Shown here in pieces: positions 348 through 33,332 of a stretch of 36,451 nt of DNA. The first letter of the stretch is position 1; each line of letters starts with the position of its first letter. Both the position numbers and the translations under genes were made by a program. Origin of the DNA: Pseudomonadota bacterium (GTDB lineage: Bacteria > Pseudomonadota > Alphaproteobacteria > CACIAM-22H2); the NCBI GenBank assembly GCA_016201015.1, contig JACQDQ010000035.1, forward strand, positions 1-36,451, read 5' to 3'. The notes beneath the pieces were generated by a model. That model was not told the origin of the DNA. It made no database searches and saw nothing but the letters and a program-made list of their open reading frames with translations.

Positions 348-364
348 TTGGCACAAAGTTTGCT
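348..364 (+). promoter_or_regulatory. Sigma-54 (-24/-12) promoter of the desaturase gene
   Basis: TTGGCAC (348-354), five bases, then TTGCT (360-364). The invariant GG and GC dinucleotides are 12 bases apart, as sigma-54 RNA polymerase requires, and every position of the core consensus is matched. Transcription would begin near 375, about 20 bases before the ATG at 396. This makes a TTG start at 348 for the downstream gene unlikely. The -12 element lies in otherwise non-coding DNA. Confidence 0.75.
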
Positions 365-395
365 GCGCATCGCAGGTGCGCTAGGATGCGCGGTC

Positions 396-1310
396 ATGAA
401 CGATCGAAATCGGCAAGGACGGACGACGTTGGCGCCCGAACCAGCCCGGCTCGAGCACCGGCTGTTCGCCCATTCGCGTTTGGACGTCATTCCGGTTGGG
501 CTTGCGGCGGCGCATCTCGCCGCCGTACTGGCACTCTTTGTCTCCTTCGAGCGCTTAAGCTGGGCCGGCTTCGCCGTTTTGGGCCTGCTCTATGCCATCA
601 GCATCTCATGGAGCATCAACAGCATCGCGCATAACTTCATACACAATCCGTATTTCGTTTCGCCGATACTCAATCGGTCGTTCAGCCTGATGCTGTCGCT
701 GACCATCGGCTTCTCGCAGGCCATGTATCACTACGTGCATCTCTGGCATCACGCCGGAAACTCGGACCGGCCGGCGCCGGACGGGACGACGATCGACTAT
801 TTGTCGATCTATCGGCACGGCCGGAACGGCCGCGCCGAGAGCCCGTGGGGCTATGTCTTCTTGAGCTACTTCCGCGACGATTTGAGTGAGATTCTGAGCA
901 AGATCGCCAGTCGACGGCCCGACGATGCGCGCTTTGGCAAGGTCGAGCTGGCCTGCGTCGCCGTGTTCTACGTGGCATTGCTGGTGATCGACTGGCGCGC
1001 ACTGATCTGCCTGGTGCCGTTCTATTATCTCGGCCACTGCCTGTCGTCCTTGAACGGCTATTACGAGCATTTCGGGGCGGATCCCGATCGGCCGATCGCC
1101 TGGGGCGTCAGCAGTTATGGTCGCTTCTACAACTGGACCTGGATGAACAACGGCTACCACGCCGAGCATCACTACCGGCCGAAGCAGCACTGGACGCAGA
1201 TGCCGGCGCTGCACAAGGAGATCGCCGCCGCGCAGCAGGCGGCCGGCGTACGCGTCATTCGCCGCGCCCACGCCCTGGGATTTCTCGATCCCTCACTGCC
1301 GGCTCGCTAG
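396..1310 (+). CDS. Membrane fatty-acid desaturase family protein
   Basis: A 304-aa integral membrane di-iron enzyme. The three histidine clusters of the family are present: HNFIH (about residue 79), HYVHLWHH (about 112-119) and HAEHH (about 255-259). An extra His sits in GYYEHFG (about 225). Hydrophobic segments flank the first two boxes and lie near 190-215. Such enzymes insert double bonds or hydroxyl groups into acyl chains or related lipids; the substrate cannot be read from sequence. I chose ATG 396 because the upstream in-frame TTG at 348 falls inside the predicted sigma-54 promoter, and AGGATG (383-388) provides a ribosome site. It lies between a CDP-diacylglycerol synthase and the sigma-54 operon starting at 2405, so a lipid-modifying role in the same regulon is plausible. 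Confidence 0.85.
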   Translation: MNDRNRQGRTTLAPEPARLEHRLFAHSRLDVIPVGLAAAHLAAVLALFVSFERLSWAGFAVLGLLYAISISWSINSIAHNFIHNPYFVSPILNRSFSLMLSLTIGFSQAMYHYVHLWHHAGNSDRPAPDGTTIDYLSIYRHGRNGRAESPWGYVFLSYFRDDLSEILSKIASRRPDDARFGKVELACVAVFYVALLVIDWRALICLVPFYYLGHCLSSLNGYYEHFGADPDRPIAWGVSSYGRFYNWTWMNNGYHAEHHYRPKQHWTQMPALHKEIAAAQQAAGVRVIRRAHALGFLDPSLPAR

Positions 1311-2404: not shown

Positions 2405-3115
2405 ATGCTTTGGCAAATTCTATGCGATTTCGACGGCACCATTGCGACGGAAGACGTTACTGACAGCTTGCTGCAGCGCTTTGCCGCCCCGGCTTGGCTG
2501 GAGATTGAAGCCGAGTGGAAGGCGGGGCGGATCGGGTCGCGTGAATGCATGACCCGCCAGATCGCCATGATCCGGGCGACGCCGGACGCGATCGACCGGC
2601 ATCTCGACGGGATTCACCTCGACCCTCATTTCTCCCGGTTCGTACGCCACTGCCGCCGCCATGCGATTCCGCTGACGGTGGTCAGCGACGGCATCGACTA
2701 CGTGATCCACCGCCTGCTTCGCCGTGACGGCCTGGACGATCTGGCGGTGGTGTCCAACCGACTGGAGCAGATCGCGCCGGACCGCTATCGGCTGCGGTTC
2801 CCCCATGCGCGCGAGGATTGCCGCTCTGCCAGCGGGACCTGCAAATGCGCTGCCGCGCAAATGTCAGCGCCCCGCCGGCGCACGCTGCTGATCGGCGACG
2901 GCGCGTCCGACCAGTGCGCCGCCGCCGCGGTCGACTTGGTGTTCGCCAAGGGCTCGCTGCTGACGCATTGCGCCCGGCTCGGCCTGCCGCACGTCGCCTG
3001 CACCAACTTCGCCGAAGCGCATCGCCTGCTGGCGGCGCTGATCAACATCGACGACGAGGCAGGCGACACGGCCGCTTCGCCGCCGGACAAGCTGGAGGAC
3101 CAAGCCTTTGAGTGA
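2405..3115 (+). CDS. MtnX-like HAD-IB family phosphatase
   Basis: A 236-aa cytoplasmic phosphatase of the haloacid dehalogenase superfamily, subclass IB. Motif I is DFDGT with the nucleophile D8 and acid D10. Motif II is the serine in VVSDG (S94). GTCKC (about 145-148) supplies the motif-III lysine and is typical of MtnX-like proteins. Motif IV is GDGASD (164-169). Relatives hydrolyse small phosphate esters such as the methionine-salvage enol phosphate, phosphoserine or phosphocholine; the substrate here is unknown, and no other salvage gene is nearby. The frame extends 100 codons upstream, but ATG 2405 is preceded by GGGAG and lies downstream of the sigma-54 promoter. It is the first gene of the operon; its stop overlaps the TTG start of the aminotransferase. 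Confidence 0.85.
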   Translation: MLWQILCDFDGTIATEDVTDSLLQRFAAPAWLEIEAEWKAGRIGSRECMTRQIAMIRATPDAIDRHLDGIHLDPHFSRFVRHCRRHAIPLTVVSDGIDYVIHRLLRRDGLDDLAVVSNRLEQIAPDRYRLRFPHAREDCRSASGTCKCAAAQMSAPRRRTLLIGDGASDQCAAAAVDLVFAKGSLLTHCARLGLPHVACTNFAEAHRLLAALINIDDEAGDTAASPPDKLEDQAFE

Positions 3116-4478
3116 AGCGTCCCTGCTCGCCGACGAAGCCAAATATTGCTCGTTCGGCGACACCGTCCACTATCTCGACCCGCCGAAACTGTTCAACCGC
3201 TGCGAGGGCTCGTTTCTGTATGACGCCGACGAGGTGCCGTTTCTCGACCTGCAGATGTGGTATTCCGCGGTCAATTTCGGCTACGCCAATCCGCGCCTGA
3301 ACGCGGCACTGAAGCGGCAGATCGACACGCTGCCGCAGCTCGCCTCGCAATATCTGCACCGCGAGAAGATCGAACTCGCCACGGCGCTCGCCAAGCGCAT
3401 GGAAAGCACGTTCGGCCTCAAGGGCCGCATTCATTTCAATGTCGGCGGCTCGCAGGCGATCGAGGACTCGCTGAAGCTGGTGCGCAACGCGACCGGGGGC
3501 AAGAGCCTGATGTTCGCCTTCGAGGGCGGCTATCACGGCCGCACGCTCGGCGCATCGGCCATCACGTCGTCCTATCGCTACCGCCGGCGCTACGGCCATT
3601 TCGGCGACCGCGCCCAGTTCGTGCCGTTTCCCTATTGCTTCCGCTGCCCCTATGGGCGCCAGCGCAACGATTGCGGGCTCTATTGCGTCGATCAGTTCGC
3701 GCGGTTGTTCGACACCGAGTATCACGGCGTCTGTGACGCCAAGGCCGGCGCTTCCGAATATGCGGCCTTTTACGTCGAGGCGATCCAGGGCACCGGCGGG
3801 TACGTGATTCCGCCGCCCGGCTATTTCGAGAAGCTGAAGACCATCCTCGAGGCGCGCAAAATCCTGCTGGTCGACGACGAGATCCAGATGGGGTTCTACC
3901 GCGCCGGCAAGTTCTGGGCGCTGGAGAATTTCAACGTGAAACCGGACATCATCGTCTTCGGCAAGGCGATGACCAACGGCCTCAACCCGCTGGCCGGCGT
4001 GTGGGCGCGCGAGGAGTTGATCAACCCCCAGACCTTCCCGCCCGGGTCGACGCATTCGACCTTCGCTAGCAATCCGCTCGGCACGGCAGTGGCGTTGGAG
4101 ACCGTCCGCATGCTCGAGGAGGACGATTACGAGTCGATGTCGTTCGCCAAGGGCGCCTACCTGCTCGAAGGCCTGACGGATCTGAAGCGCCGCTATCCGA
4201 TCATCGGCGATGTCGACGGGCTCGGCATGGCGCTGCGCATGGAGATCTGCGGCACCGACGGCTTCACACCCGACAAGGAGACGACCGACCGCATGGTCGC
4301 GGAGGCGATGAAGGGCGATCTCGAGGTCGGTGGCAGGCGCTACGGCCTGGTGCTCGACATCGGTGGCTACTACAAGAACGTCGTCACGCTCGCGCCGGCC
4401 CTCACCATCTCGCGCGAGGAGATGGATCTCGCCTTGACGCTGCTCGACCATGTGCTCGAGCGCGTGACGCGCCACTGA
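3108..4478 (+). CDS. Class-III PLP-dependent aminotransferase
   Basis: A 456-aa fold-type I PLP enzyme of the acetylornithine/omega-amino acid aminotransferase group. Visible marks are GSQAIEDSLKL (cofactor phosphate site, about 114-124), FEGGYHGRT (138-146), VDDEIQMGF (255-263, PLP-ring aspartate) and FGKAMTNG with the Schiff-base lysine K286. It would move an amino group between a terminal amine or amino acid and a keto acid. Four cysteines, C177, C180, C189 and C193 (pattern CxxC-N8-C-N3-C), form an unusual cluster resembling inserts in some archaeal and GABA-type members. The TTG start at 3108 is supported by GGAGG at 3094-3098 and by overlap with the preceding stop. The true substrate is not evident; the ureohydrolase-like neighbour makes an amine or guanidino compound plausible. 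Confidence 0.88.
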   Translation: MSEASLLADEAKYCSFGDTVHYLDPPKLFNRCEGSFLYDADEVPFLDLQMWYSAVNFGYANPRLNAALKRQIDTLPQLASQYLHREKIELATALAKRMESTFGLKGRIHFNVGGSQAIEDSLKLVRNATGGKSLMFAFEGGYHGRTLGASAITSSYRYRRRYGHFGDRAQFVPFPYCFRCPYGRQRNDCGLYCVDQFARLFDTEYHGVCDAKAGASEYAAFYVEAIQGTGGYVIPPPGYFEKLKTILEARKILLVDDEIQMGFYRAGKFWALENFNVKPDIIVFGKAMTNGLNPLAGVWAREELINPQTFPPGSTHSTFASNPLGTAVALETVRMLEEDDYESMSFAKGAYLLEGLTDLKRRYPIIGDVDGLGMALRMEICGTDGFTPDKETTDRMVAEAMKGDLEVGGRRYGLVLDIGGYYKNVVTLAPALTISREEMDLALTLLDHVLERVTRH

Positions 4479-4481
4479 CCC

Positions 4482-5399
4482 ATGCGGCTTCGTTTGCTCG
4501 ATCTCGATGGCAGTGCCGCGATGCAGGCGGCGGCGGCAGAGCTCGGCAGTCCAATCCAGAAGCTCGACTTCGTTGGACTCGGTCCGCAGCTTCGCCTGTG
4601 GGCCAGCCGACGCGCGATGGCGGAGTTCGCCGACCGGCTCCGCGGCGCCGCCGAGCCACCCGGTGATGGGCCGATCCTGACGCTGCTTGGCTCGGGCGAC
4701 TACCATCATCTGAGCGCCGCGCTGATTGCCGCGACCGAGACGCCGCTGACCGTCGTCCATTTCGACAATCATCCGGATTGGGTTCGGTTCGCGCCGGCAT
4801 TTCATTGCGGTTCCTGGATCAATCGCGTGCTGGAACTGCCAAACGTTCAGCGCGTGGTGACCATCGGGCCCTGTAGCGACGACCTGGTTCGGCCGCAATT
4901 CAAGGGCGGGAACCTGGCCGCCCTCTCCGCCGGCCGCCTCGAGCTTTACCCTTGGCGACATGCGCCATCGGCGGTGTGGGGTTGCATCGGCTCCGGCCCG
5001 AGTTTCAGCCAGCGCGATGGGCAGCTGATCTGGCGTAATGTCGGGTGCGAGGACTGGCAGGACTTTCTGGAGGAATTGTTGCCCCGCATTCCGACGGAAC
5101 GGATCTGGATCACAATCGACAAGGACGTATTGTCGATGGCGGATGCCGCCACCAACTGGGACCAGGGCGAGATGCCGCTCGCGGCCCTGCTCGTTGCGGT
5201 GCGCACGCTCGCACGCGGTAAATGCGTGCAAGCTGTTGATGTCTGTGGCGACTACTCGCCGCCGCGGTTCGATCGAAACCTGGTGAAGCGCTGGGAAGCC
5301 TGGCGCGACCACCCGCCCGCCCCGCCTGCGGCCGACCTGGCACGAAACGTCGCGACCAATCGGGCATTGATTGCAACCCTGCAGGATGCGTTGCGATGA
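4482..5399 (+). CDS. Divergent arginase/ureohydrolase-fold metalloenzyme
   Basis: A 305-aa protein with the metal-binding pattern of the arginase/agmatinase fold in an unusual form: GSGDYHH (70-76), HFDNHPD (93-99), TIDKDVL (211-217) and NWDQGEMP (225-232). All six ligands of a binuclear Mn site can be matched (H75, D95, H97, D99, D213, D215). The spacing and flanking residues differ from true arginases: GSGDYHH replaces GGDHS and HFDNHPDW replaces DAHxD. Members of this superfamily hydrolyse guanidino groups or deacetylate amines. Arginase itself is unlikely; the substrate is unknown. The start lies three bases after the aminotransferase stop, and its stop overlaps the next ATG by four bases, implying translational coupling. 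Confidence 0.7.
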   Translation: MRLRLLDLDGSAAMQAAAAELGSPIQKLDFVGLGPQLRLWASRRAMAEFADRLRGAAEPPGDGPILTLLGSGDYHHLSAALIAATETPLTVVHFDNHPDWVRFAPAFHCGSWINRVLELPNVQRVVTIGPCSDDLVRPQFKGGNLAALSAGRLELYPWRHAPSAVWGCIGSGPSFSQRDGQLIWRNVGCEDWQDFLEELLPRIPTERIWITIDKDVLSMADAATNWDQGEMPLAALLVAVRTLARGKCVQAVDVCGDYSPPRFDRNLVKRWEAWRDHPPAPPAADLARNVATNRALIATLQDALR

Positions 5400-5773
5400 G
5401 CTCGGCCATCATCGGACTATTTGCGCTCACCATCGTACTCGAGGTGACCGGCCAGCTCTGCTTCAAGATCGGCCTGGAGCGCCGGCCCGAGCCGAGCTCC
5501 CCTGCCGGTTTCGGACAATTCTGGCAACGCATTTTCTCGTCGTCCTGGCTGTGGGGCGGCATCGCCGCCTATTCTCTGGAAATCGGGTTGTGGCTGGCCG
5601 TGTTGGCGCACGCGCCGCTCAGCCTGGTGTTTCCGTTGGCCAGCCTCAGCTATTGCGGCGTGCTTCTGGCCAGCCGGATCGTCCTGAAGGAGGTCGTCTC
5701 TCCACGACGATGGGCTGGTGCCGCGCTGATCACTCTCGGCGTCGCGACGATCAGCGTCGGAACGCAATTTTGA
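5396..5773 (+). CDS. Small multidrug resistance (SMR/EmrE-like) transporter subunit
   Basis: A 125-aa protein with four hydrophobic helices (about 3-23, 50-72, 75-96, 103-122). The first helix carries the membrane glutamate in LEVTGQ (E16), which in EmrE-type transporters binds both proton and cationic substrate. WAGAALITLGV in helix 4 is typical of the family. The loop between helices 1 and 2 is longer and more polar than in EmrE. Such proteins exchange protons for organic cations, guanidinium or polyamines in the inner membrane, often as pairs of unlike subunits. A second, now broken SMR gene lies at 7760, so the original exporter may have been a heterodimer. It overlaps the preceding stop by ATGA, and its own stop overlaps an in-frame TTG of the next gene. 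Confidence 0.8.
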   Translation: MSSAIIGLFALTIVLEVTGQLCFKIGLERRPEPSSPAGFGQFWQRIFSSSWLWGGIAAYSLEIGLWLAVLAHAPLSLVFPLASLSYCGVLLASRIVLKEVVSPRRWAGAALITLGVATISVGTQF

Positions 5774-5790
5774 ACGGCTTGGACAAATCG

Positions 5791-6627
5791 ATGGATGCCG
5801 TGGACAACAGTTTCTTCTACCCCGGTGGGCACCACGGCGTGCTGCTGATACATGGTCTGGGCGGCACGCCGACGGAGATGAAGTATCTCGGCAAGGGGCT
5901 CGCGCGGGCCGGCTTCACCGTTTCCGGGATGCAGCTCGCCGGCCATTGCGGCAGCGAGGCCGATCTGCTGCGCACCGGTCGGCGTGATTGGTATGAGAGC
6001 GTCGAAGCAGCCTATGACTGGCTCCGCCCGCGTGTCGATGCGGTTTTTGTCGGCGGGCTATCGATGGGCGCGCTGCTGGCGATGGAACTTGCCACACGCA
6101 GGCCAACCGCCTGCGCCGGGCTCGCGCTCTATTCGACCACGCTTTGGTACGATGGCCGGAGCATTCCGCGCATTCACTTCCTCGTGCCGCTCATATTGAA
6201 GTTGCCGTTCGTCGATCGTTTTCGCTTCACCGAAGCCTATCCCTTCGGCATCAAGGACGATCGGCTGCGTAGCCGCGTCGTTTCGCAAATGCATGGTGGC
6301 GATAGCGGTGCCGCCGGCCTACCTGGACTCACCGCGACCAGCCTGCGCGAACTCACCAAGCTGATCGCGCAGGTGAAGCGCGATGTGGCCAAGGTGCGAG
6401 TGCCGACGCTGGTCATCCATGCCATCGATGACGACGTCACCAGTCCGCGCAATGCGCTGTTTCTCGCCCGCAATCTGGGCGGGCCGGTCCGCACCGTGCT
6501 GCTCAGCGACTGCTATCACATGATTACCGTCGATCGCCAGCGCGACGAGGTCGTGCGACTCAGCGCCGATTATTTCACCGAAGCCGCGACCACGGCCGGA
6601 ATCTCCGCATCGATTGCGGCGGAATGA
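5791..6627 (+). CDS. Alpha/beta-fold hydrolase (Est30-like carboxylesterase)
   Basis: A 278-aa alpha/beta hydrolase. Oxyanion loop LLIHGLGGTP (18-27), nucleophile elbow GGLSMG with S91, catalytic acid among D213-D215 in AIDDDVTSP, and catalytic H243 in CYHMITVD are all present. The pattern is closest to carboxylesterases of the Est30/monoacylglycerol-lipase type, so it could cleave ester or acyl bonds in a lipid-like or acylated intermediate. No signal peptide is visible; it should be cytoplasmic. ATG 5791 is used, but an in-frame TTG at 5770 overlapping the SMR stop (TTGA) would add seven residues and would fit the coupling seen elsewhere in the operon. The stop overlaps the ATG of the GNAT gene. 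Confidence 0.82.
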   Translation: MDAVDNSFFYPGGHHGVLLIHGLGGTPTEMKYLGKGLARAGFTVSGMQLAGHCGSEADLLRTGRRDWYESVEAAYDWLRPRVDAVFVGGLSMGALLAMELATRRPTACAGLALYSTTLWYDGRSIPRIHFLVPLILKLPFVDRFRFTEAYPFGIKDDRLRSRVVSQMHGGDSGAAGLPGLTATSLRELTKLIAQVKRDVAKVRVPTLVIHAIDDDVTSPRNALFLARNLGGPVRTVLLSDCYHMITVDRQRDEVVRLSADYFTEAATTAGISASIAAE

Positions 6628-7763
6628 GGCCCATGACGGTCGAAGTCGCCGTCTTTGACAGCATTGCCGCCATCCGCCGATCGGATTGGGAGCGTTGCTT
6701 TCCGGACGAGATCGAAAGCTGGGACTATTACCGCGCGGTCGAGGACGCCGGCATACCGGGGTTCGAATGGCGGTATTTTGCCGTGTGCGCCGACCAGCGC
6801 CCGCTGGCCGTCGTCCCCGGCTTCATCACCACCTACCGGCTGGACGCGTCGGTCCAGGGGCGTTGGAAGCGCGTCACGGAGCGGCTCGTCGAGTTGCTGC
6901 CGTGGTTGCTTTCGATCCGGTTGGCCTGCCTCGGATCGCCGGTCGCAGAGGTTTGCCATCTCGGCTTTGCGCCCGAGATCGCCGAGCGCCAGAAGCCGGA
7001 ACTGCTGCGCGATCTGATCGCCGAGCTGAAGCGCTTCGCCGAACGCGAGGGCATCGGCTTGATCGGCATCAAGGACGCTCCGAGCGAACAATGCGATCTA
7101 TGGTCGGGCTGTCTGCCGGACTTCAAGCGGCTGCCGGGCTTGGCAACCGCATTGTTGCCGCTGCCCTATGGCGACTTCGACGCATATCTGAAGAGCTTGA
7201 GTCGGGCCACGCGCAAGGACATGAAGCGCAAGTTGCGTGCCGGGGCAGGCATCCGTATGGAGCGGCGCACGAACATCGATGACGTGCTGCCACGCGTGCT
7301 GGCGCTCTACGAGGAAACCGTGGCGCGGAGCGATCTGCAATTCGAGCAGCTGCCAGGGACATATTTCGCCAATGTTCTCGCGAGCATGAAAGGGCGAGCC
7401 TACTGCCTGCTTTGCTGGTTGGATGCCGAGCTCCTGGCCTTCAACCTTGTCCTCGAATCTCCGGGGCGGCTGGTGGACAAGTTCGTCGGCCTGCACTACC
7501 CGGTCGTGCGGACGTACAATCTGTACTTCCTGACCTGGATGGCAAACGTGCGGTACTGCATCGAACAAGGCATCCCGGTATATCAAAGCGGGCAGGCTGC
7601 CTACGCGCCCAAGCTCCGCCTCGGCTGCCGGTTGCGGCCGAATTGGCAGTTTTTTCGTCACCGCAATCCATTGCTGAACGTGCTGCTGCGCTGGGTTAGC
7701 CACTTGGTGCGGATGGATCGCTTCGATCCCGAATTACAATCCATGCTGCGGGGCGTCAAGTGA
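6624..7763 (+). CDS. GNAT/FemAB-like acyltransferase (COG3146, peptidogalycan biosynthesis type)
   Basis: A 379-aa protein of the two-lobed GNAT class related to FemAB aminoacyl transferases and COG3146/DUF482 proteins. Indicators are the N-terminal SDWERCF...FEWRYFAV block, the basic RATRKDMKRKLR segment (about 192-203) before the C-terminal acetyltransferase-like lobe, FNLVLESPGRLVDKFVGLHY (about 273-292), and a tail YQSGQAAYAPKLRLG (about 318-332), which is characteristic of this group. Relatives transfer acyl or aminoacyl groups to amines. No signal peptide is visible. Within the operon it could acylate the amine made by the aminotransferase/ureohydrolase pair; that is inference. It overlaps the preceding stop by ATGA, and its own stop forms GTGA with the next, broken gene. 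Confidence 0.75.
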   Translation: MRPMTVEVAVFDSIAAIRRSDWERCFPDEIESWDYYRAVEDAGIPGFEWRYFAVCADQRPLAVVPGFITTYRLDASVQGRWKRVTERLVELLPWLLSIRLACLGSPVAEVCHLGFAPEIAERQKPELLRDLIAELKRFAEREGIGLIGIKDAPSEQCDLWSGCLPDFKRLPGLATALLPLPYGDFDAYLKSLSRATRKDMKRKLRAGAGIRMERRTNIDDVLPRVLALYEETVARSDLQFEQLPGTYFANVLASMKGRAYCLLCWLDAELLAFNLVLESPGRLVDKFVGLHYPVVRTYNLYFLTWMANVRYCIEQGIPVYQSGQAAYAPKLRLGCRLRPNWQFFRHRNPLLNVLLRWVSHLVRMDRFDPELQSMLRGVK

Positions 7764-7923
7764 GCACGGCATCCGTCCGAACGGCGGCAAGCGCGCCGAT
7801 GTTCGCGCTATGGGTCGTCGTGCTTGCGGTTGAAGCCGGGGCGCAGATCGGCCTGAAACTCGGCAGCGTGGCGTCGGCCTCATCATCGCCGGCGTATATG
7901 TGCTTGCGCGAGACGACTCGTGA
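7760..7923 (+). pseudogene. Second SMR transporter gene, internally deleted and frameshifted
   Basis: The GTG at 7760 opens a frame encoding a typical SMR first helix (ALWVVVLAVEAGAQIGLKLG, with the membrane glutamate). In another frame, bases 7870-7923 encode the typical SMR last helix and end (GVGLIIAGVYVLARDDS, then TGA). The two pieces join near 7860-7870. Helices 2 and 3, roughly 80 codons judged from the intact SMR at 5396, are missing, and the join shifts the frame. Both flanking couplings survive: GTGA with the GNAT stop and GTGA with the sensor kinase start. The loss is therefore either recent or an assembly error. The open frame continuing to 8179 is only readthrough over the kinase gene. 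Confidence 0.75.
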
Positions 7924-9680
7924 GGTGGCCAACGACATCGCTTCAGCTGCGGCTGGTCACCGCCTTCCTGCTCGTCAGCCTGCCGCCGATGTTGTTCGCC
8001 GCCCAACTCGCCAGCCAAGCCGTTGCCACCGCCTTCGAGCAGAACGTCGAAGGCTGGTTGCGGCAAAGCTCGGCCTATTTCGTCAGCAACATGCAGGAAG
8101 CACAGCAGGAGGCCGCCGGCGTCGCGCGATTTGTCGCCAGCGAGACAGAGGCGGTCGGCCGCTTGATCGACAGCGGTGAACCGCTTCCGGCGCCGATCGC
8201 TGAATTGGTCAAGTCGATCGGTTACGACCTGGTGGCGATCTACGATGCGGACCAGCGGCTCGTCTATATGTCACGGCCGGCCAATTCGATCGAGAACCTG
8301 CGGCTTGGGACCGATCACGCGCTCGCGCGGGTTCGCATCGATGATCAGATATACATCATGAATTTCGGCGTGCAGAGCTTTGCATATCGCGGCAAGCAGT
8401 ATTACCTGCTGATCGGGATCTGGCTCGACGAGGAATATCTGGGCGCCCTCGGCGCCGTAACCGATTTGGAGTTGCGGCTCTACTACCGCGAGACAAGCAG
8501 CTTTCGGGAGTTCTATTCGTCGCGCGCGCATGACACGGTGGGCGTCCTGCTCGATGAACGGATCACCGCGGCCGTCCTGCAAAGCAGCGCCGGCTATTAC
8601 GACCGCCGCGCGGAAGGCGGGCAATATGTCGGACTCTACAGCGCGCTGCGCAGCAGTGACGGAGAGGTGCTCGGAATCATATTCTGCGGATTGCGCTCTT
8701 ATGCCTCGCTGACCAGTTGGTTCAACCGGACCAACCTCTTTCTGATCATTCTATTGACCGGCGCAGTGCTCGCCGTATTGGCCGGGCTGATTGTTTCCCG
8801 CCGGCTCACGCGCCCGCTGCGGGCCCTGGTCACCGGCGTGCAAGCGATCACCCGCGGCGACTACCGCCAGCGCGTCGCCGCCACCGGTCAGGATGAGGTC
8901 GCGGAATTGGCTGGTGCGTTCAATGACATGGCCGAGCGCTTGGCCAGATCGCAGGAGCTGGAGACCCAACTGCGTCGGCGACAACGATTGTCGGCGTTGG
9001 GTGAGGTCGCCGTCGGCATCGCCCATGAGGTTCGCAATCCGCTCGGCGTGATCAAGACATCGGCGGAGCTGGTGCAAAAGCGCGACCACTTGCCGAGCAC
9101 CGATGCACGGCTCCTGGGCTACGTCGTCGACGAGGTTCGCCGGATCGATCAACTGATTCGGGACTTTCTGGAGTTCGCCAAGCCGCGCCCGCCCGTATTG
9201 CGGCCCCTCAATCCCGTCGAGGTCGTGCGCCGCGTGGCCAGTTTTTGCGTCCCCGAGCTTGATCGCACAGGCGTGCAAGTGTCGCTGCAAGACAGCACCG
9301 ATGGCGTCGAGATCGAAGCCGACGAGGATCAACTGTTCCAGGTCTTTCTCAACCTCTTTCTCAATGCGATCGAGGTCATGCCGAACGGGGGTCATCTCAC
9401 CGTCAGGTTTGATCTCGATCACAGCGGATTGATCATCGCCGTGCGAGATACCGGTAGCGGGATTCCGCCGGAAGTGCAGGAGAAGATTTTCAATCCGTTC
9501 TTCACGACCAAGGAACACGGCAGCGGATTGGGCTTGGCCAAAGTCTTCTCGATCATGGAAAGCCACGGCGGGCGGGTCGAATGCGCCAGTCAACCGGGCG
9601 CCGGCGCAACATTCACGCTATTCTTCCCTCTGCGAGCCAGGGCGGATACCGATGTCGCATACCATTCTGCTGGTCGATGA
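7920..9680 (+). CDS. Membrane sensor histidine kinase (NtrB/AtoS-like) of the sigma-54 two-component pair
   Basis: A 586-aa kinase. TM1 lies at about 10-33 and TM2 at about 272-292, enclosing a periplasmic sensor region of about 240 residues. Then come HAMP (about 293-345), HisKA with the phospho-acceptor H369 in IAHEVRNPLG, and HATPase with LFLNAIEVMPNGG (N box), DTGSG (510-514) and GSGLGL (534-539). The periplasmic region looks like a dCache-type fold (repeated YDADQRLVYMS and GLYSALRSSDGEVLG), but this was judged by eye. The GTG start at 7920 overlaps the broken SMR stop. It should phosphorylate the adjacent NtrC-like regulator, whose gene overlaps its last 29 bases. The ligand is unknown; a product or precursor of the operon's pathway is a reasonable guess. 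Confidence 0.9.
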   Translation: MRWPTTSLQLRLVTAFLLVSLPPMLFAAQLASQAVATAFEQNVEGWLRQSSAYFVSNMQEAQQEAAGVARFVASETEAVGRLIDSGEPLPAPIAELVKSIGYDLVAIYDADQRLVYMSRPANSIENLRLGTDHALARVRIDDQIYIMNFGVQSFAYRGKQYYLLIGIWLDEEYLGALGAVTDLELRLYYRETSSFREFYSSRAHDTVGVLLDERITAAVLQSSAGYYDRRAEGGQYVGLYSALRSSDGEVLGIIFCGLRSYASLTSWFNRTNLFLIILLTGAVLAVLAGLIVSRRLTRPLRALVTGVQAITRGDYRQRVAATGQDEVAELAGAFNDMAERLARSQELETQLRRRQRLSALGEVAVGIAHEVRNPLGVIKTSAELVQKRDHLPSTDARLLGYVVDEVRRIDQLIRDFLEFAKPRPPVLRPLNPVEVVRRVASFCVPELDRTGVQVSLQDSTDGVEIEADEDQLFQVFLNLFLNAIEVMPNGGHLTVRFDLDHSGLIIAVRDTGSGIPPEVQEKIFNPFFTTKEHGSGLGLAKVFSIMESHGGRVECASQPGAGATFTLFFPLRARADTDVAYHSAGR

Positions 9681-11028
9681 CGAACCGAAGCTGCGCGACG
9701 TTCTGACCGTTGCGTTGAACGACATGGGCTACCGCACCCTGTCGGCCCGCTCGGGGCATGAGGCGATCGACGTGCTGCAGCACGAAGATATTGACCTCGT
9801 TCTCACCGACCTCCGCATGTCGGAGATGGGCGGGCGGGAATTGCTGCGGGAGAGCAAGCGGCTGAAACCCGCCGTGCCGGTCGTCCTGATGACGGCCTAT
9901 AGCTCGGTGAAGGACGCGGTGCAGGCGATCAAGGAAGGCGCATTCGACTACATCGGCAAGCCGTTCGAAATGGACGAGCTGGGTGCCACGCTCGGCAATG
10001 CTCTCCGCCTTTACGACGCGATCCGAGACAACCAACGGCTCCGCCAGGCCTTGGAACAGGAGAACAGCTTCGACACTCTGGTCGGGAACAGCCCGACTTT
10101 CCGGGAGGTCATCCGGACGATCGCGGAAGTGTGCGAGAGCCGGGCGAACGTCCTGCTCACCGGTGAAAGCGGCACCGGAAAGGAAATGGTCGCTCGCGCG
10201 ATTCACTACGGTTCATCGCGTCGCGCTGGTCCATTCGTCGCTCTCAACTGCGCGGCCATCCCGGAAGGGCTGCTCGAGACCGAGCTATTCGGCCACGTGA
10301 AGGGCGCCTTCACCGGGGCGATCGCCAATCGCGTCGGCCGGTTCGCCCAAGCGGACAACGGGACGCTTTTCCTCGACGAAATCGGCGACATGCCGATGTC
10401 AGTCCAAGCCAAGATACTGCGCGTCCTGCAAGAGCGCGCGTTCGAGCCGGTTGGCAGCACGCAGAGACGGACCGTGGACGTGCGTATCATCGCGGCGACC
10501 AACAAAGACCTGTTGGAGGCGGTGCGGCAGAAGGCCTTCCGCGACGACCTCTACTACCGTCTGAACGTGTTTCCGATCCGACTGCCGCCGTTGCGGCAGC
10601 GAATCGAGGATATTCCGCTTCTCGCCGACCATTTCGGGCGGCAAGTCGCGGCGGAAATGGGCAAGCGCTTCGCCGGCTTCAGCGAGGCGGCGCTGCAGGC
10701 GATGACCGCATACGCCTGGCCGGGAAATATTCGCGAGCTGCAAAACTGCGTGGAGCGGGCCATCATCGTGGCGCGGCAAGATCGCATCGACGTGGTCGAT
10801 CTGCCGCACTACCTGTTCGAGCGCCCAAGCGGACCCGAGGCCAATGGTGGGCTGCCGGCCAAACTGGACGCGGAGATCGAGCGGGTCGAGCGCGATTATC
10901 TGATCGAGGCGTTGCGCCGCGCGGGTGGCGTTCAGGTGAAGGCGGCGGAATTGCTCGGCATCAGCGAGCGCAGCTTCTGGCATCGGGTCAAGAAGTATGG
11001 AATCAACATCGTGAAGCAAGCCGGCTGA
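9652..11028 (+). CDS. NtrC-family sigma-54-dependent response regulator
   Basis: A 458-aa activator. Receiver domain: acidic DD at 9-10, phospho-acceptor D53, K103. AAA+ domain: Walker A GESGTGKE (171-178), GAFTGA loop (218-223) that contacts sigma-54, Walker B LFLDEI (239-244), and arginine-finger region RDDLYYRLNVFPI. C-terminal Fis-type helix-turn-helix: KAAELLGISERSFWHRVKKY. All parts needed to activate sigma-54 promoters are intact. It is the last gene of an operon that itself starts with a sigma-54 promoter (2332), so autoregulation is likely. The desaturase (348) and MipA (2187, minus strand) promoters are probable further targets. The ATG at 9652 lies inside the kinase gene, a usual arrangement for such pairs. 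Confidence 0.93.
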   Translation: MSHTILLVDDEPKLRDVLTVALNDMGYRTLSARSGHEAIDVLQHEDIDLVLTDLRMSEMGGRELLRESKRLKPAVPVVLMTAYSSVKDAVQAIKEGAFDYIGKPFEMDELGATLGNALRLYDAIRDNQRLRQALEQENSFDTLVGNSPTFREVIRTIAEVCESRANVLLTGESGTGKEMVARAIHYGSSRRAGPFVALNCAAIPEGLLETELFGHVKGAFTGAIANRVGRFAQADNGTLFLDEIGDMPMSVQAKILRVLQERAFEPVGSTQRRTVDVRIIAATNKDLLEAVRQKAFRDDLYYRLNVFPIRLPPLRQRIEDIPLLADHFGRQVAAEMGKRFAGFSEAALQAMTAYAWPGNIRELQNCVERAIIVARQDRIDVVDLPHYLFERPSGPEANGGLPAKLDAEIERVERDYLIEALRRAGGVQVKAAELLGISERSFWHRVKKYGINIVKQAG

Positions 11029-29660: not shown

Positions 29661-32600
29661 TCAGCCGGCAGCGGCGCGCAGCTCGTCGATCCGGCGTGCA
29701 ACCGTCTCGCGCACGGTTCTCGGGTTTAGCGGCTTTTCAATGCACGCGACCCTGGTTTCGATGAGAAACGTCGTGACATGGGGCGCGAGAGTATCGCCGG
29801 TGATGAACACCAGGCGATCGAGCATCTTGGGATGTTCCTTGGCCACGGCACGATAGAGCCCCGGCCCATCGAGCACCGGCATCCGCAGATCGCTGAGAAT
29901 CAGGTCGTAGCGTCGCTCCGCCAGGCGTGCGAGCGCCTGACGGCCATTGTCAGCGATGTCGACGCTGTGACCCGCCCTCTCCAGGATCTCCGCCAGCGTC
30001 TGGGCAGTCTCGATTTCGTCATCGACAACTAGAATCTCGGCTCCGCCCTGGCGCTTCTCAGAATCTGCCGGAAGGTCGGCGGGCGAAGCTGTCACCGCCC
30101 CTCTCTGCGGCAGGGTCACCGTGAATGTCGCCCCGCCGCCGGGCGTATCGCCGACCGTGATACGCCCGCCATGCGCCTCAACGACGCCCTGGCACATCGA
30201 CAACCCCACGCCGGTGCCGACGCCGGTCGGCTTGGTTGTGAAGAACGGCTCGAAAATGCGCGAGCGTATCTCCAGTGGAACTCCAGGGCCATTATCCGCC
30301 ACCGACAGGACCAGTTCGCGGCGATCGGCGCGATGGCTCGTCGCGATCACGATCCGCCGCGGCGGTGAACGTTCCATCAGCGCCTGCTGTGCATTGACGA
30401 TGAGATTGGTAAAGACCTGGTTGAGCTGGTCGGCGTCGGCCATCAGCCGCGGCAGATCGCGGGCAAGTTCGAGGTCGACCGTGATGTCGGTCGTCCGCAG
30501 ATTGTAGGCGAGCAAATCGAGTCCGGCCTCGACGACGCTGTTGATGTCCAATGCCGTGACTTCCGGTGGGCGCCGGCGCGCCATCGCGAGAAAAGTCTTG
30601 ACGATTCGCGCGCAGCGTTCGGCGGCGCGGCGAATCTTCTCGGCCCGCGCGGCCACCGCAGGATCGGCGGCCATATCGTGCAGCATCACGGCCTGGCCAA
30701 CCACCACCGAAAGAGGATTGTTGAGCTCATGGGCGACGCCGGCGAGGAGCGAGCCGAGCGCTGTCAATTTCTCGCTATGCGCCAAGGCTTCGCGCTGCCG
30801 AAGAATTTCCGCGTCCGCGCGCTTGGCCTCGGTTAGGTCGACGAAGCCCGAGACGATCGCCCCCTCGCCTTCCCACACGATTCTTCGCGACGACAGGGAC
30901 GCAGGAAATACCGAACCATCGCCCTTGCGCAGCATGACTTCGAAATTTTCGATATTCGGGGATTCCGAAAGCGCGGCGATCAGACGCTGGCGGTCCGCGG
31001 GATCGGCATAATAGACGGCGGAATTGGTGCCGACGCAGTCATCCACCTTGAACAATCGATGAGAGCCGGGGCTCGCGTAGACGATGACGCCGTCGGCAAG
31101 CCGGACGATGACGACCGGCACGGGATGAGCCTCGGCAATACCGCGAAATCGCTGTTCGCTTTCGCGCAAGGCCCGCTCCATCTGCTGGCGTTGCGAGATG
31201 TCGCGGACATAGGCCGTGAACGCCCGTGTTTCCGGTAGGCGCACTTCGGCGATCGACAGTTCGGCGGGAAAAGTCGAGCCGTCGGCACGCATGGCCTCGA
31301 CGTCCACGCGCCGGCCCAGCATCCGCCTCTCGGGATTCTGCTCGAGCTGCATCAAGCCTTCGTTATGGCGGTGGCGCAGATGCGGCGGGACGATGACGTC
31401 GACGACCCGCCGCCCGAGAACGTCGTCTCTGGCATATTTGAACGTCCGCTCGGCCGCCGGATTGAACTCGAGGATTTCCCCCTGATCGCTCATCGTGATG
31501 ATCGCATCGAGCGATGAATCGATCATCGCCGACTTCAGCGCCTCGCTCTCGCGCAAGATCGCCTGGACGCGCTTCTGGTCGGTGATGTCGGTTCGTACGA
31601 AGACGAAGCCGCCATCCGCCGTCGGATAGTGGGACACGACGGACCAGCGTCCATCCGCCCACTCGATTTCCAACGGCGCCGCGGACCGGTCGCGAAACCG
31701 CGCGAGCGAGCGCGCGATCAGTGCATCGCGATCCGTGATCGGCACGCCATCGACGGTGACCACCTGCGGCACCAGCCTGCGAAGCAGCCCCTCCGCCGAG
31801 GCGCCGATGATCGCATCCGGCCGGGCGTTGTAAACGGCCGCAAAGGCGGGATTGCACAGTTGCAGCCGCTGATCACGATCATAGACGCCGACGCCCTGCG
31901 GCAGCGTAGCCATCGTATCCGCGACCATCTGATCCAATCGCCGGCGCTGCGCATCGTCGCGGTCGCGGCTGATCGCGACGCCGACCAACCCGGCTACGGC
32001 GCGCAACGCCTCGATTTCGAGCGGTTGCCAGACGCGTTCTTCCGTACAATGGTCAAAGCCGATGGTTCCCCACCACTGGCCTTCGACCATGACCGGGACC
32101 CGGATCGCGGATTTCACCCCCTGCCTCTCGAACCACGCACGCTGCCCGTCAGGCAAATCGCGCGTCAGGCCGTAGACGACCATGCCGCGGGAACGTTGCG
32201 CCCGCCAGTCCTGGAAAGCGCCGTCCTTCAGGACAACGTCGCGTAAGGCCTCATCATCCATGACGCGACGAATGCCCGGCGCGTCCCACTCGAACAGGTC
32301 CTCCTGTAGATAGGCGCCGTCCGCCGTTATATCGTTGCGACTCAGGGTCACGCGGCTGACACCCGCCGCCGGGCCGAGTCTTACGATCATTTCCTCGACT
32401 TGATCGCGCCATCCGGCACTCGACAACAGGCGCGCAGCCGCGTCGTTGACGACCGAGAGTATCGCCTCGCGGCGCTTGATATCGGTGATGTCGACGCGAA
32501 CGGCGACGGTCCAATCCTCGGCGGTGCGCCGGTCGGTCACCCGGATCCAGCGGCCGCCTGGCTTCGGCACGTCGAGCGACCCGGTGGGATTGCGGTGAAA

Positions 32601-33332
32601 CGCCATACGGCGCGCGATATGCGCCTCCGCTTCTTCCGGCGGCACCATCGTATCGCTCGACATCGTCATCGCACGGACCAGGTGCTCGAAGCTCACGCCT
32701 TCCCGCAACTCACTGGCAATCGCCTGTTGCATCTCCCGGTATCGGGCGTTGCACAGGACCAGACGGTCCTCGTTGTCAAACAGCGCAAATCCTTCGGACG
32801 AACATTCGATGGCGTCGAGCAGGCGGCGATGCGTGGCGACGGCCCGCTTCTCGGCGGCAAGCCGCTGCGTGACATCGCCGCAGAATATGACGAAACCGCC
32901 CTTGCGCAGGGCAGTTCCCCTGATCTTGATCGTCCGTCCATCGGGCAAGGACCGCTGGCGCACGTAATCCTCATGCCGGCGGAAAACCTGGAGACGTGAA
33001 GCGACGGCTTCCTCCTCGGTCATGTCGCCATACGCGCCCTGGCGGGCGTTGTATCGGATCACTCCCTCAAGCGGGGCGCCGGGGCGAACCAACCGGGCCG
33101 GAAGGCCGAACAGCCGGCGGAAGGCCGAGTTGGCGACGCGAATATCAAGTTTCGCGTCGACGATGCACACGCCCTGGGGAACGTCTTGAACGATGATGTC
33201 GAGCAGCGACGTGTCGGTAGCGGCCCGACCCGCCCTTTCCGTTCGAGATCGGCGAGCGGGCCCAGTGGGCCGCTTCGGCGACGTTGCCGCGGCCTTAGGC
33301 CGAGGGACTCGCGGCCGATTGTTTCGTGCCAC
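29661..33332 (-). CDS. Multi-PAS/GAF hybrid sensor histidine kinase with C-terminal receiver
   Basis: A 1223-aa soluble kinase with no membrane helix. Order by eye: basic Pro-rich N-terminus (1-40); PAS-like modules at about 42-158 and 168-288; GAF at about 290-458; PAS at about 465-588, 597-718 and 722-840 (each ending in a DIT/DIS/DLT motif); HisKA with H868 in VAHELNNPLS; HATPase with N980, DNGPG (1013-1017) and GVGTGVGLSM; receiver with DD (1104-1105), D1148 and K1200. The GAF stretch FDHCTEERVWQPLEIEAL is typical. The GTG start at 33332 follows a weak GGGGTG. It should sense a cytoplasmic signal (redox, haem, flavin or small molecule; not determinable) and pass phosphate to its own receiver and possibly to the convergent OmpR-type regulator. 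Confidence 0.9.
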   Translation of the reverse strand: MARNNRPRVPRPKAAATSPKRPTGPARRSRTERAGRAATDTSLLDIIVQDVPQGVCIVDAKLDIRVANSAFRRLFGLPARLVRPGAPLEGVIRYNARQGAYGDMTEEEAVASRLQVFRRHEDYVRQRSLPDGRTIKIRGTALRKGGFVIFCGDVTQRLAAEKRAVATHRRLLDAIECSSEGFALFDNEDRLVLCNARYREMQQAIASELREGVSFEHLVRAMTMSSDTMVPPEEAEAHIARRMAFHRNPTGSLDVPKPGGRWIRVTDRRTAEDWTVAVRVDITDIKRREAILSVVNDAAARLLSSAGWRDQVEEMIVRLGPAAGVSRVTLSRNDITADGAYLQEDLFEWDAPGIRRVMDDEALRDVVLKDGAFQDWRAQRSRGMVVYGLTRDLPDGQRAWFERQGVKSAIRVPVMVEGQWWGTIGFDHCTEERVWQPLEIEALRAVAGLVGVAISRDRDDAQRRRLDQMVADTMATLPQGVGVYDRDQRLQLCNPAFAAVYNARPDAIIGASAEGLLRRLVPQVVTVDGVPITDRDALIARSLARFRDRSAAPLEIEWADGRWSVVSHYPTADGGFVFVRTDITDQKRVQAILRESEALKSAMIDSSLDAIITMSDQGEILEFNPAAERTFKYARDDVLGRRVVDVIVPPHLRHRHNEGLMQLEQNPERRMLGRRVDVEAMRADGSTFPAELSIAEVRLPETRAFTAYVRDISQRQQMERALRESEQRFRGIAEAHPVPVVIVRLADGVIVYASPGSHRLFKVDDCVGTNSAVYYADPADRQRLIAALSESPNIENFEVMLRKGDGSVFPASLSSRRIVWEGEGAIVSGFVDLTEAKRADAEILRQREALAHSEKLTALGSLLAGVAHELNNPLSVVVGQAVMLHDMAADPAVAARAEKIRRAAERCARIVKTFLAMARRRPPEVTALDINSVVEAGLDLLAYNLRTTDITVDLELARDLPRLMADADQLNQVFTNLIVNAQQALMERSPPRRIVIATSHRADRRELVLSVADNGPGVPLEIRSRIFEPFFTTKPTGVGTGVGLSMCQGVVEAHGGRITVGDTPGGGATFTVTLPQRGAVTASPADLPADSEKRQGGAEILVVDDEIETAQTLAEILERAGHSVDIADNGRQALARLAERRYDLILSDLRMPVLDGPGLYRAVAKEHPKMLDRLVFITGDTLAPHVTTFLIETRVACIEKPLNPRTVRETVARRIDELRAAAG

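Follow-up and report, generated by a model that had tools for sequence, protein, structure and literature searches.

Sigma-54 systems of the NtrC family, such as AtoS-AtoC, consist of a sensor kinase and an activator in which receiver, AAA+ and HTH domains are combined with a GAFTGA motif. A pair of this type ends an operon at 2405-11028 in the DNA analyzed here, which is the whole 36,451-nt stretch of contig JACQDQ010000035.1 (assembly GCA_016201015.1, forward strand) and is referred to below as the window. The best NCBIfam matches of the window pair were AtoS and AtoC, but both proteins fell short of the equivalog cut-offs (AtoS, 239.2 of 646; AtoC, 507.9 of 714) and the genes linked to them are not those of acetoacetate catabolism. 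The same genes as in the window, encoding a HAD phosphatase, a class-III aminotransferase, an arginase, an EamA protein, a desaturase, a hydrolase, a GNAT protein and MipA, make up a cluster carried by rhizobial and agrobacterial plasmids, the desaturase of which is 52-59% identical to that of the window. In the plasmid clusters, in contrast, an OmpR-type regulator comes first, the desaturase gene lies within the operon, and no sigma-54 site was found.

Two envelope-modifying systems share further features with the operon. The product of its gnat gene resembles in fold MprF, other aminoacyl-phosphatidylglycerol (A-PG) synthases and FemX, although at only ~10-14% identity and without a membrane domain of the MprF type. 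In the A-PG system of Pseudomonas aeruginosa the hydrolase gene adjoins the synthase gene, and gnat likewise lies beside a hydrolase gene (abh). Aminoarabinose (Arn) modification of lipid A also relies on small EamA flippase-like subunits and an aminotransferase; the small transporter of the window (smr), however, scored below both equivalog cut-offs (ArnE, 43.7 of 92; ArnF, 50.8 of 99), and nothing resembling ArnT was noticed among the operon genes.

Gene content of the desaturase locus

The features on which the analysis rests are as follows.

348-364, + strand: putative -24/-12 (sigma-54) promoter of the desaturase gene, TTGGCAC-AAAGT-TTGCT, exact match, predicted start 375
396-1310, + strand: putative membrane fatty-acid desaturase, 304 aa (PF00487, 104.6 bits, cut-off 29.7; three His boxes)
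1318-2106, - strand: MipA/OmpV-family outer-membrane protein, mipA (PF06629, 140.9 bits)
2187-2202, - strand: weak candidate for a -24/-12 site before mipA, CGGCAC-N5-TTGCT, one mismatch
2255-2281, + strand: candidate activator (enhancer) site, six mismatches to TTTGKAGCNNCCTACAAAAATTGKAGC
2332-2348, + strand: putative -24/-12 promoter of the had...ntrC operon, TTGGCAC-CGTTC-TTGCC
2405-3115, + strand: MtnX-like HAD-IB phosphatase, had (TIGR01489, 100.6 bits, cut-off 81.55)
3108-4478, + strand: class-III PLP aminotransferase, amt3 (PF00202)
4482-5399, + strand: arginase-fold protein, arg (PF00491, 25 bits, cut-off 22)
5396-5773, + strand: EamA/ArnE-ArnF-like small transporter, smr (ArnF model, 50.8 bits, below the cut-off of 99)
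5773-6627, + strand: alpha/beta hydrolase, abh (PF12146, 82.1 bits)
6624-7763, + strand: FemX/MprF-fold acyltransferase of the GNAT/FemAB type, gnat (AF2 pLDDT 91; Foldseek)
7781-7923, + strand: apparent remnant of a second EamA subunit, a first helix followed in another frame by a last-helix-like stretch
7920-9680, + strand: sensor histidine kinase, AtoS-like (HAMP, HisKA, HATPase; Cache-like domain below cut-off)
9652-11028, + strand: sigma-54-activating response regulator, AtoC-like (PF00072, PF00158, PF02954; alignment)

The 396-1310 product exceeds the Pfam cut-off and carries the three His boxes HNFIH, HYVHLWHH and HAEHH, which together identify it as a putative membrane fatty-acid desaturase. 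Its AF2 model was weak (pLDDT 66.7) and gave no informative fold match (best Foldseek E 0.012), and searches of solved structures with the desaturase and with arg returned no relative. No second copy of the desaturase was found in the same genome at E<=0.001, and at E<=1e-60 a phylum-wide sample of 398 genomes yielded it in its own genome only. The arginase-like protein occurred in 3 of 385 sampled alphaproteobacterial genomes, the same three in which desaturases were found at E<=1e-60; since one of these is the genome of the window, the independent part of this co-occurrence is 2/2.

Within the operon, had fell below the MtnX equivalog cut-off (102.9 of 292) and passed the broader MtnX-like subfamily model, no match listed for amt3 reached an NCBIfam equivalog cut-off, and arg retains the metal-ligand-like motifs GDYHH, DNHPD and TIDKD. 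The 379-residue gnat product was modeled as a mixed alpha/beta protein over its full length, with no MprF flippase (membrane) domain, and its best solved structures in Foldseek were Sbb17, FemX, FemA and MprF (3e-13 to 1e-9), Sba18 being matched as well; Sbb17 and Sba18 are aminoacyl-tRNA-dependent, and the match to MprF is to its synthase part. The regulator encoded from 9652 comprises a receiver, an AAA+ domain with GAFTGA and a Fis-type HTH, and is by these domains and this motif a predicted NtrC-type sigma-54 activator.

Between gnat and the kinase, 7781-7923 looks like a second EamA gene apparently missing its middle. The first helix of this stretch was matched by the L023 copy at 8.9e-4, its C-terminal part having been judged by eye, and the loss may reflect either a real deletion or an assembly collapse. 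A second EamA match adjoins gnat on the far side in L029, L051, L088-L092, L095 and L096, and lies between abh and gnat in L013, L023 and L037. Elsewhere in the window, a 1223-aa open reading frame on the minus strand (29661-33332) resembles, by eye, a hybrid histidine kinase with several PAS domains and a receiver at its C terminus.

A putative sigma-54 promoter upstream of the desaturase

The initial annotation had described a perfect TTGGCAC-N5-TTGCT at 348-364, and the scans agree. The site fits 11 of 11 informative positions of TGGCAC-N5-TTGCW, with GG and GC 10 bases apart, and is the only exact occurrence of this 16-base pattern on either strand of the window, where 0.02 would be expected (2 of 100 dinucleotide-preserving shuffles contained one). 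The fuller sigma-54 consensus has a G after TGGCAC; the base at this position in 348-364 is an A. Sites with up to two mismatches were as frequent in the window as expected (15 vs 14.8), so that only exact or near-exact sites carry weight. Across the 5.33-Mb genome, which encodes RpoN (PF04552, 4.1e-65), six exact sites were counted vs four for a reversed-pattern control, while the looser TGGCAC-N5-YTGCH form gave 19 matches, two of them at the desaturase locus, vs 45 for its reversed control and is thus of little weight alone. The five other exact matches lie on contigs C68, C369, C453, C490 and C491 (L097-L101). Two of them lie upstream of a flagellin-like and a TRAP-type solute-binding-like open reading frame, whose starts follow the first base of the site by 106 and 68 nt, respectively; flagellin and TRAP-type binding-protein genes are frequent sigma-54 targets.

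The GC of the site, at 362-363, places the predicted transcript start at ~375, 21 nt before ATG 396. The spacing of about 20 bases to this ATG that had been claimed for the box therefore applies to the predicted start, but not to the box itself, the 3′ end of which is 31 nt away. Although the first start codon of the mechanically called open reading frame is TTG 348, this codon is part of the -24 box and would precede the transcript. In the Pseudomonas homologues of the desaturase, moreover, the first residue corresponds to residue 16 after ATG 396. ATG 396 is thus the better start, and TTG 348 was rejected, as the initial annotation had anticipated.

Conservation of the site was assessed in relatives. 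Among the matches listed, 25 Pseudomonas desaturase loci were found, and a GG-N10-GC site precedes the desaturase ATG in all 24 that were readable, L071 having been left out for its 54 nt of upstream sequence; such a site occurred in 416 of 8000 random 110-bp stretches. The Pseudomonas sites read TGGTCYG-N3-TTTGCA or a near form with two to three mismatches to the consensus, an invariant core (GG and GC, 10 apart), the C at -12 falling 35-40 nt before the ATG, and little information in the columns upstream. As these 24 loci are akin to each other, the count speaks for conservation rather than for 24 independent events. In L095, from another alphaproteobacterium (G286), had and the desaturase gene are divergent and each is preceded by TGGCAC-N5-TTGCG. 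In the five rhizobial plasmid clusters and in G334 (L096), all of which are headed by an OmpR-type regulator and hold the desaturase gene within the operon, the best sigma-54 match before the desaturase had four mismatches in 6/6 cases. Sequence comparison thus supports a sigma-54 promoter before the desaturase that is conserved in relatives and absent where an OmpR-type regulator governs the same cluster, in keeping with what had been proposed for the window.

These results bear on the idea that 348-364 matches by chance and that transcription of the desaturase gene starts from a sigma-70-type promoter that escaped detection. A lone 11-position match may arise in a GC-rich genome, the reversed control came close to the exact pattern in its genomic count (4 vs 6), and the search for sigma-70-like promoters, none of which was found at positions 1-2600, belongs to a type of scan that is weak in GC-rich genomes. 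With so low an expectation in the window, the correct strand and distance, and the same type of site before the desaturase in every readable Pseudomonas locus and in L095, we nevertheless regard a chance origin as very improbable and have set it aside. The one-mismatch candidate before mipA (2187-2202), 80-odd nt upstream of the gene, fared differently. It is not conserved in relatives and is not significant alone, 7 of 100 shuffles likewise containing three sites at <=1 mismatch, and a sigma-54 promoter of mipA was accordingly rejected beyond candidate status.

The cluster and its regulator class in relatives

A contig scan with the arginase-like protein found at least 335 relatives, and 80 loci, chiefly from Pseudomonas, were retained. 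Loci under scripted identity or position limits were left out of the motif and gene-order counts, as were matches of <25% identity and the L014 mipA row from the promoter counts before had, arg and mipA. Among the matches listed, arg, smr and had lie in one stretch and in order in 68 of the 80 loci; mipA accompanies them in 67/68 and the desaturase in 24/68, making the latter accessory to the cluster. A sigma-54 site with at most one mismatch precedes had in 66 of 74 loci and arg in 73 of 80 (again among the matches listed).

The loci of Roseomonas and Aureimonas, L110, L089 and L096 were scanned once the promoter pattern had been seen. The NtrC-type clusters on Roseomonas and Aureimonas plasmids both carry a had site with one mismatch, as did 191 of 10,000 random 400-bp stretches, and no sigma-54 core site was found before had in the OmpR-type loci L089, L096 and L110. 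Before had in the five rhizobial plasmid clusters, the best sigma-54 match had three to four mismatches. No had site with fewer than four mismatches was found in L013, L023, L029 and L051, which are alphaproteobacterial or from MAGs and either lack a nearby NtrC-type pair or have a distant one; L037 has one with two mismatches that lacks the core.

The surroundings of the cluster vary. In 45 of the 77 loci with enough flank (among the matches listed), the 3 kb preceding arg contain a second kinase/NtrC-type pair, L008, L010, L016, L042 and L052 being examples; this pair could serve arg or the desaturase in those loci. In Bosea (L055, 7434-7860), a CFA-synthase gene is divergent from had and preceded by a two-mismatch sigma-54-like site, CTGGCACGTTTCCTGCGG, so that CFA synthase is perhaps another acyl-chain enzyme under the same control. 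CFA synthase is found near the cluster in several relatives, and other neighbors include genes for a lipid A phosphoethanolamine transferase (EptA) and diacylglycerol kinase, for MacB-type efflux and TolC, and for undecaprenyl-diphosphate phosphatase and a DegT-type aminotransferase.

A candidate activator site and the proposed regulon

Upstream of had, the Pseudomonas loci have in common TTTGKAGC-NN-CCTACAAAAATTGKAGC, a motif made up of the dyad CTACAA-N3-TTGTAG and one additional half site. In 65 of 66 NtrC-type loci (among the matches listed) it was found, at up to six mismatches, no more than 330 bp from had, and it occurred nowhere else in 1.35 Mb, a count that holds partly by construction since the motif was read from these same Pseudomonas loci. 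It is single in each of the three Pseudomonas genomes searched. The best match in the window is 2255-2281, with six mismatches (6e-5 expected by chance in the mipA-had intergenic stretch), followed by one with nine; the corresponding figures are four mismatches in Bosea (1e-6) and seven in L095 (3e-4). Scored as a dyad, the motif is exact in Roseomonas and Aureimonas, L095 deviates from it at one position and the window at two, and a further dyad with two mismatches is present in the window at 8979; the dyad pattern was drawn up after the Roseomonas, Aureimonas and L095 loci had been seen. A TGCATTTTG block common to the window and Bosea was also considered as the enhancer, and was dropped in favor of the conserved dyad because a genome scan gave two weak matches elsewhere.

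Near the arg promoters, motif and dyad scored like random DNA. The 320 bp preceding the desaturase gene in 22 NtrC-type loci likewise held no more enhancer-like sequence, whether motif or dyad, than random DNA, and in the window no match stood out upstream of 348. The idea of an activator site adjoining the desaturase promoter was thus rejected, and activation of this promoter would have to act over some distance (~0.9 kb in one Pseudomonas locus, 1.9 kb in the window) or come from another activator. The latter reading, in which a real sigma-54 promoter is driven not by the 9652 regulator but by another enhancer-binding protein (e.g. NtrC, or a cold- or nitrogen-responsive one), draws on this missing match and on the second kinase/NtrC-type pair beside arg in 45/77 of the loci (matches listed). 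We consider it unlikely but a serious contender, given that the sole enhancer candidate of L095 is flanked by the had and desaturase promoters, which are divergent, that the desaturase adjoins the operon in the window, in L095 and in Pseudomonas, and that no other regulator pair was noted between desaturase and operon in the window.

The initial annotation had also tied the desaturase to the neighboring two-component system. Conservation of the cluster, co-occurrence of desaturase and arg, and the sigma-54 site and candidate activator site of the operon all lend support to this tie at the sequence level; its last step, control of the desaturase promoter by the 9652 regulator, is our inference. 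On balance, we think it fairly likely that this system runs a sigma-54 regulon for the alteration of envelope lipids, of which the desaturase is a dedicated part. In such a regulon, the membrane sensor kinase (7920-9680) would respond to a signal by phosphorylating the NtrC/AtoC-type regulator (9652-11028), which would bind the enhancer at 2255-2281 between mipA and the operon and switch on RpoN-RNA polymerase at the operon promoter (2332-2348). The same enhancer would probably also activate the desaturase promoter at 348-364 by DNA looping. The operon, with its FemX/MprF-fold transferase, ArnE/F-like transporter, aminotransferase, phosphatase and hydrolase, probably serves envelope-lipid modification: its enzymes would make an amino-group-bearing unit, the FemX/MprF-fold enzyme would transfer this unit to a lipid or lipid carrier, and the ArnE/F-like transporter would flip the modified lipid, while the desaturase would change acyl chains in the same response.

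From the fold of gnat, the ArnE/F-like transporter, MipA/OmpV, CFA synthase and the neighbor genes of relatives, the likeliest role of the cluster would appear to be to place an amino modification on an envelope lipid, perhaps as protection from cationic compounds. Names and folds could also be read as those of a pathway to a small secreted or lipid-tailed metabolite, on whose tail the desaturase would act, rather than of membrane remodeling. The antibiotic-biosynthesis peptide synthases Sbb17 and Sba18 are among the closest solved structures of the gnat model, and aminotransferase, phosphatase and arginase-like enzymes suit small-molecule synthesis; we find this quite unlikely, however, as the FemX/MprF relatives, the ArnE/F-like transporters, MipA/OmpV and the CFA synthase and EptA neighbors all point to the envelope.

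An envelope-lipid regulon fits the argument, made in passages of PMC3162934 (Francke et al. 2011), that sigma-54 controls the bacterial exterior; the word desaturase is absent from those portions of its text. In Pseudomonas syringae pv. phaseolicola, the desaturase gene desI and rpoN are both raised at 18°C, with no link drawn between them in the relevant passages (PMC3639832). Among the entries listed in searches of the open-access literature there was neither a case of sigma-54 control of a desaturase, which had been called unusual from the outset, nor a description of the cluster, which is conserved and apparently uncharacterized. The wider regulon is a more interesting find than the desaturase promoter alone. 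We tentatively suggest, with somewhat less than even confidence, that it represents an undescribed envelope-lipid system, widespread in Pseudomonas and scattered in alphaproteobacteria, that produces and exports an amino-modified lipid, includes a dedicated desaturase answering to RpoN, and has had NtrC- and OmpR-type control swapped, the desaturase promoter tracking the regulator class.

With a conserved desaturase driven by RpoN next to an envelope operon of aminoacyltransferase-like type, changes of acyl chains and of headgroup or charge would be joined in one response. The link between desaturase and operon is testable in tractable Pseudomonas strains, and the exchange of regulator class over one gene set would offer a natural experiment on how promoters follow regulators.
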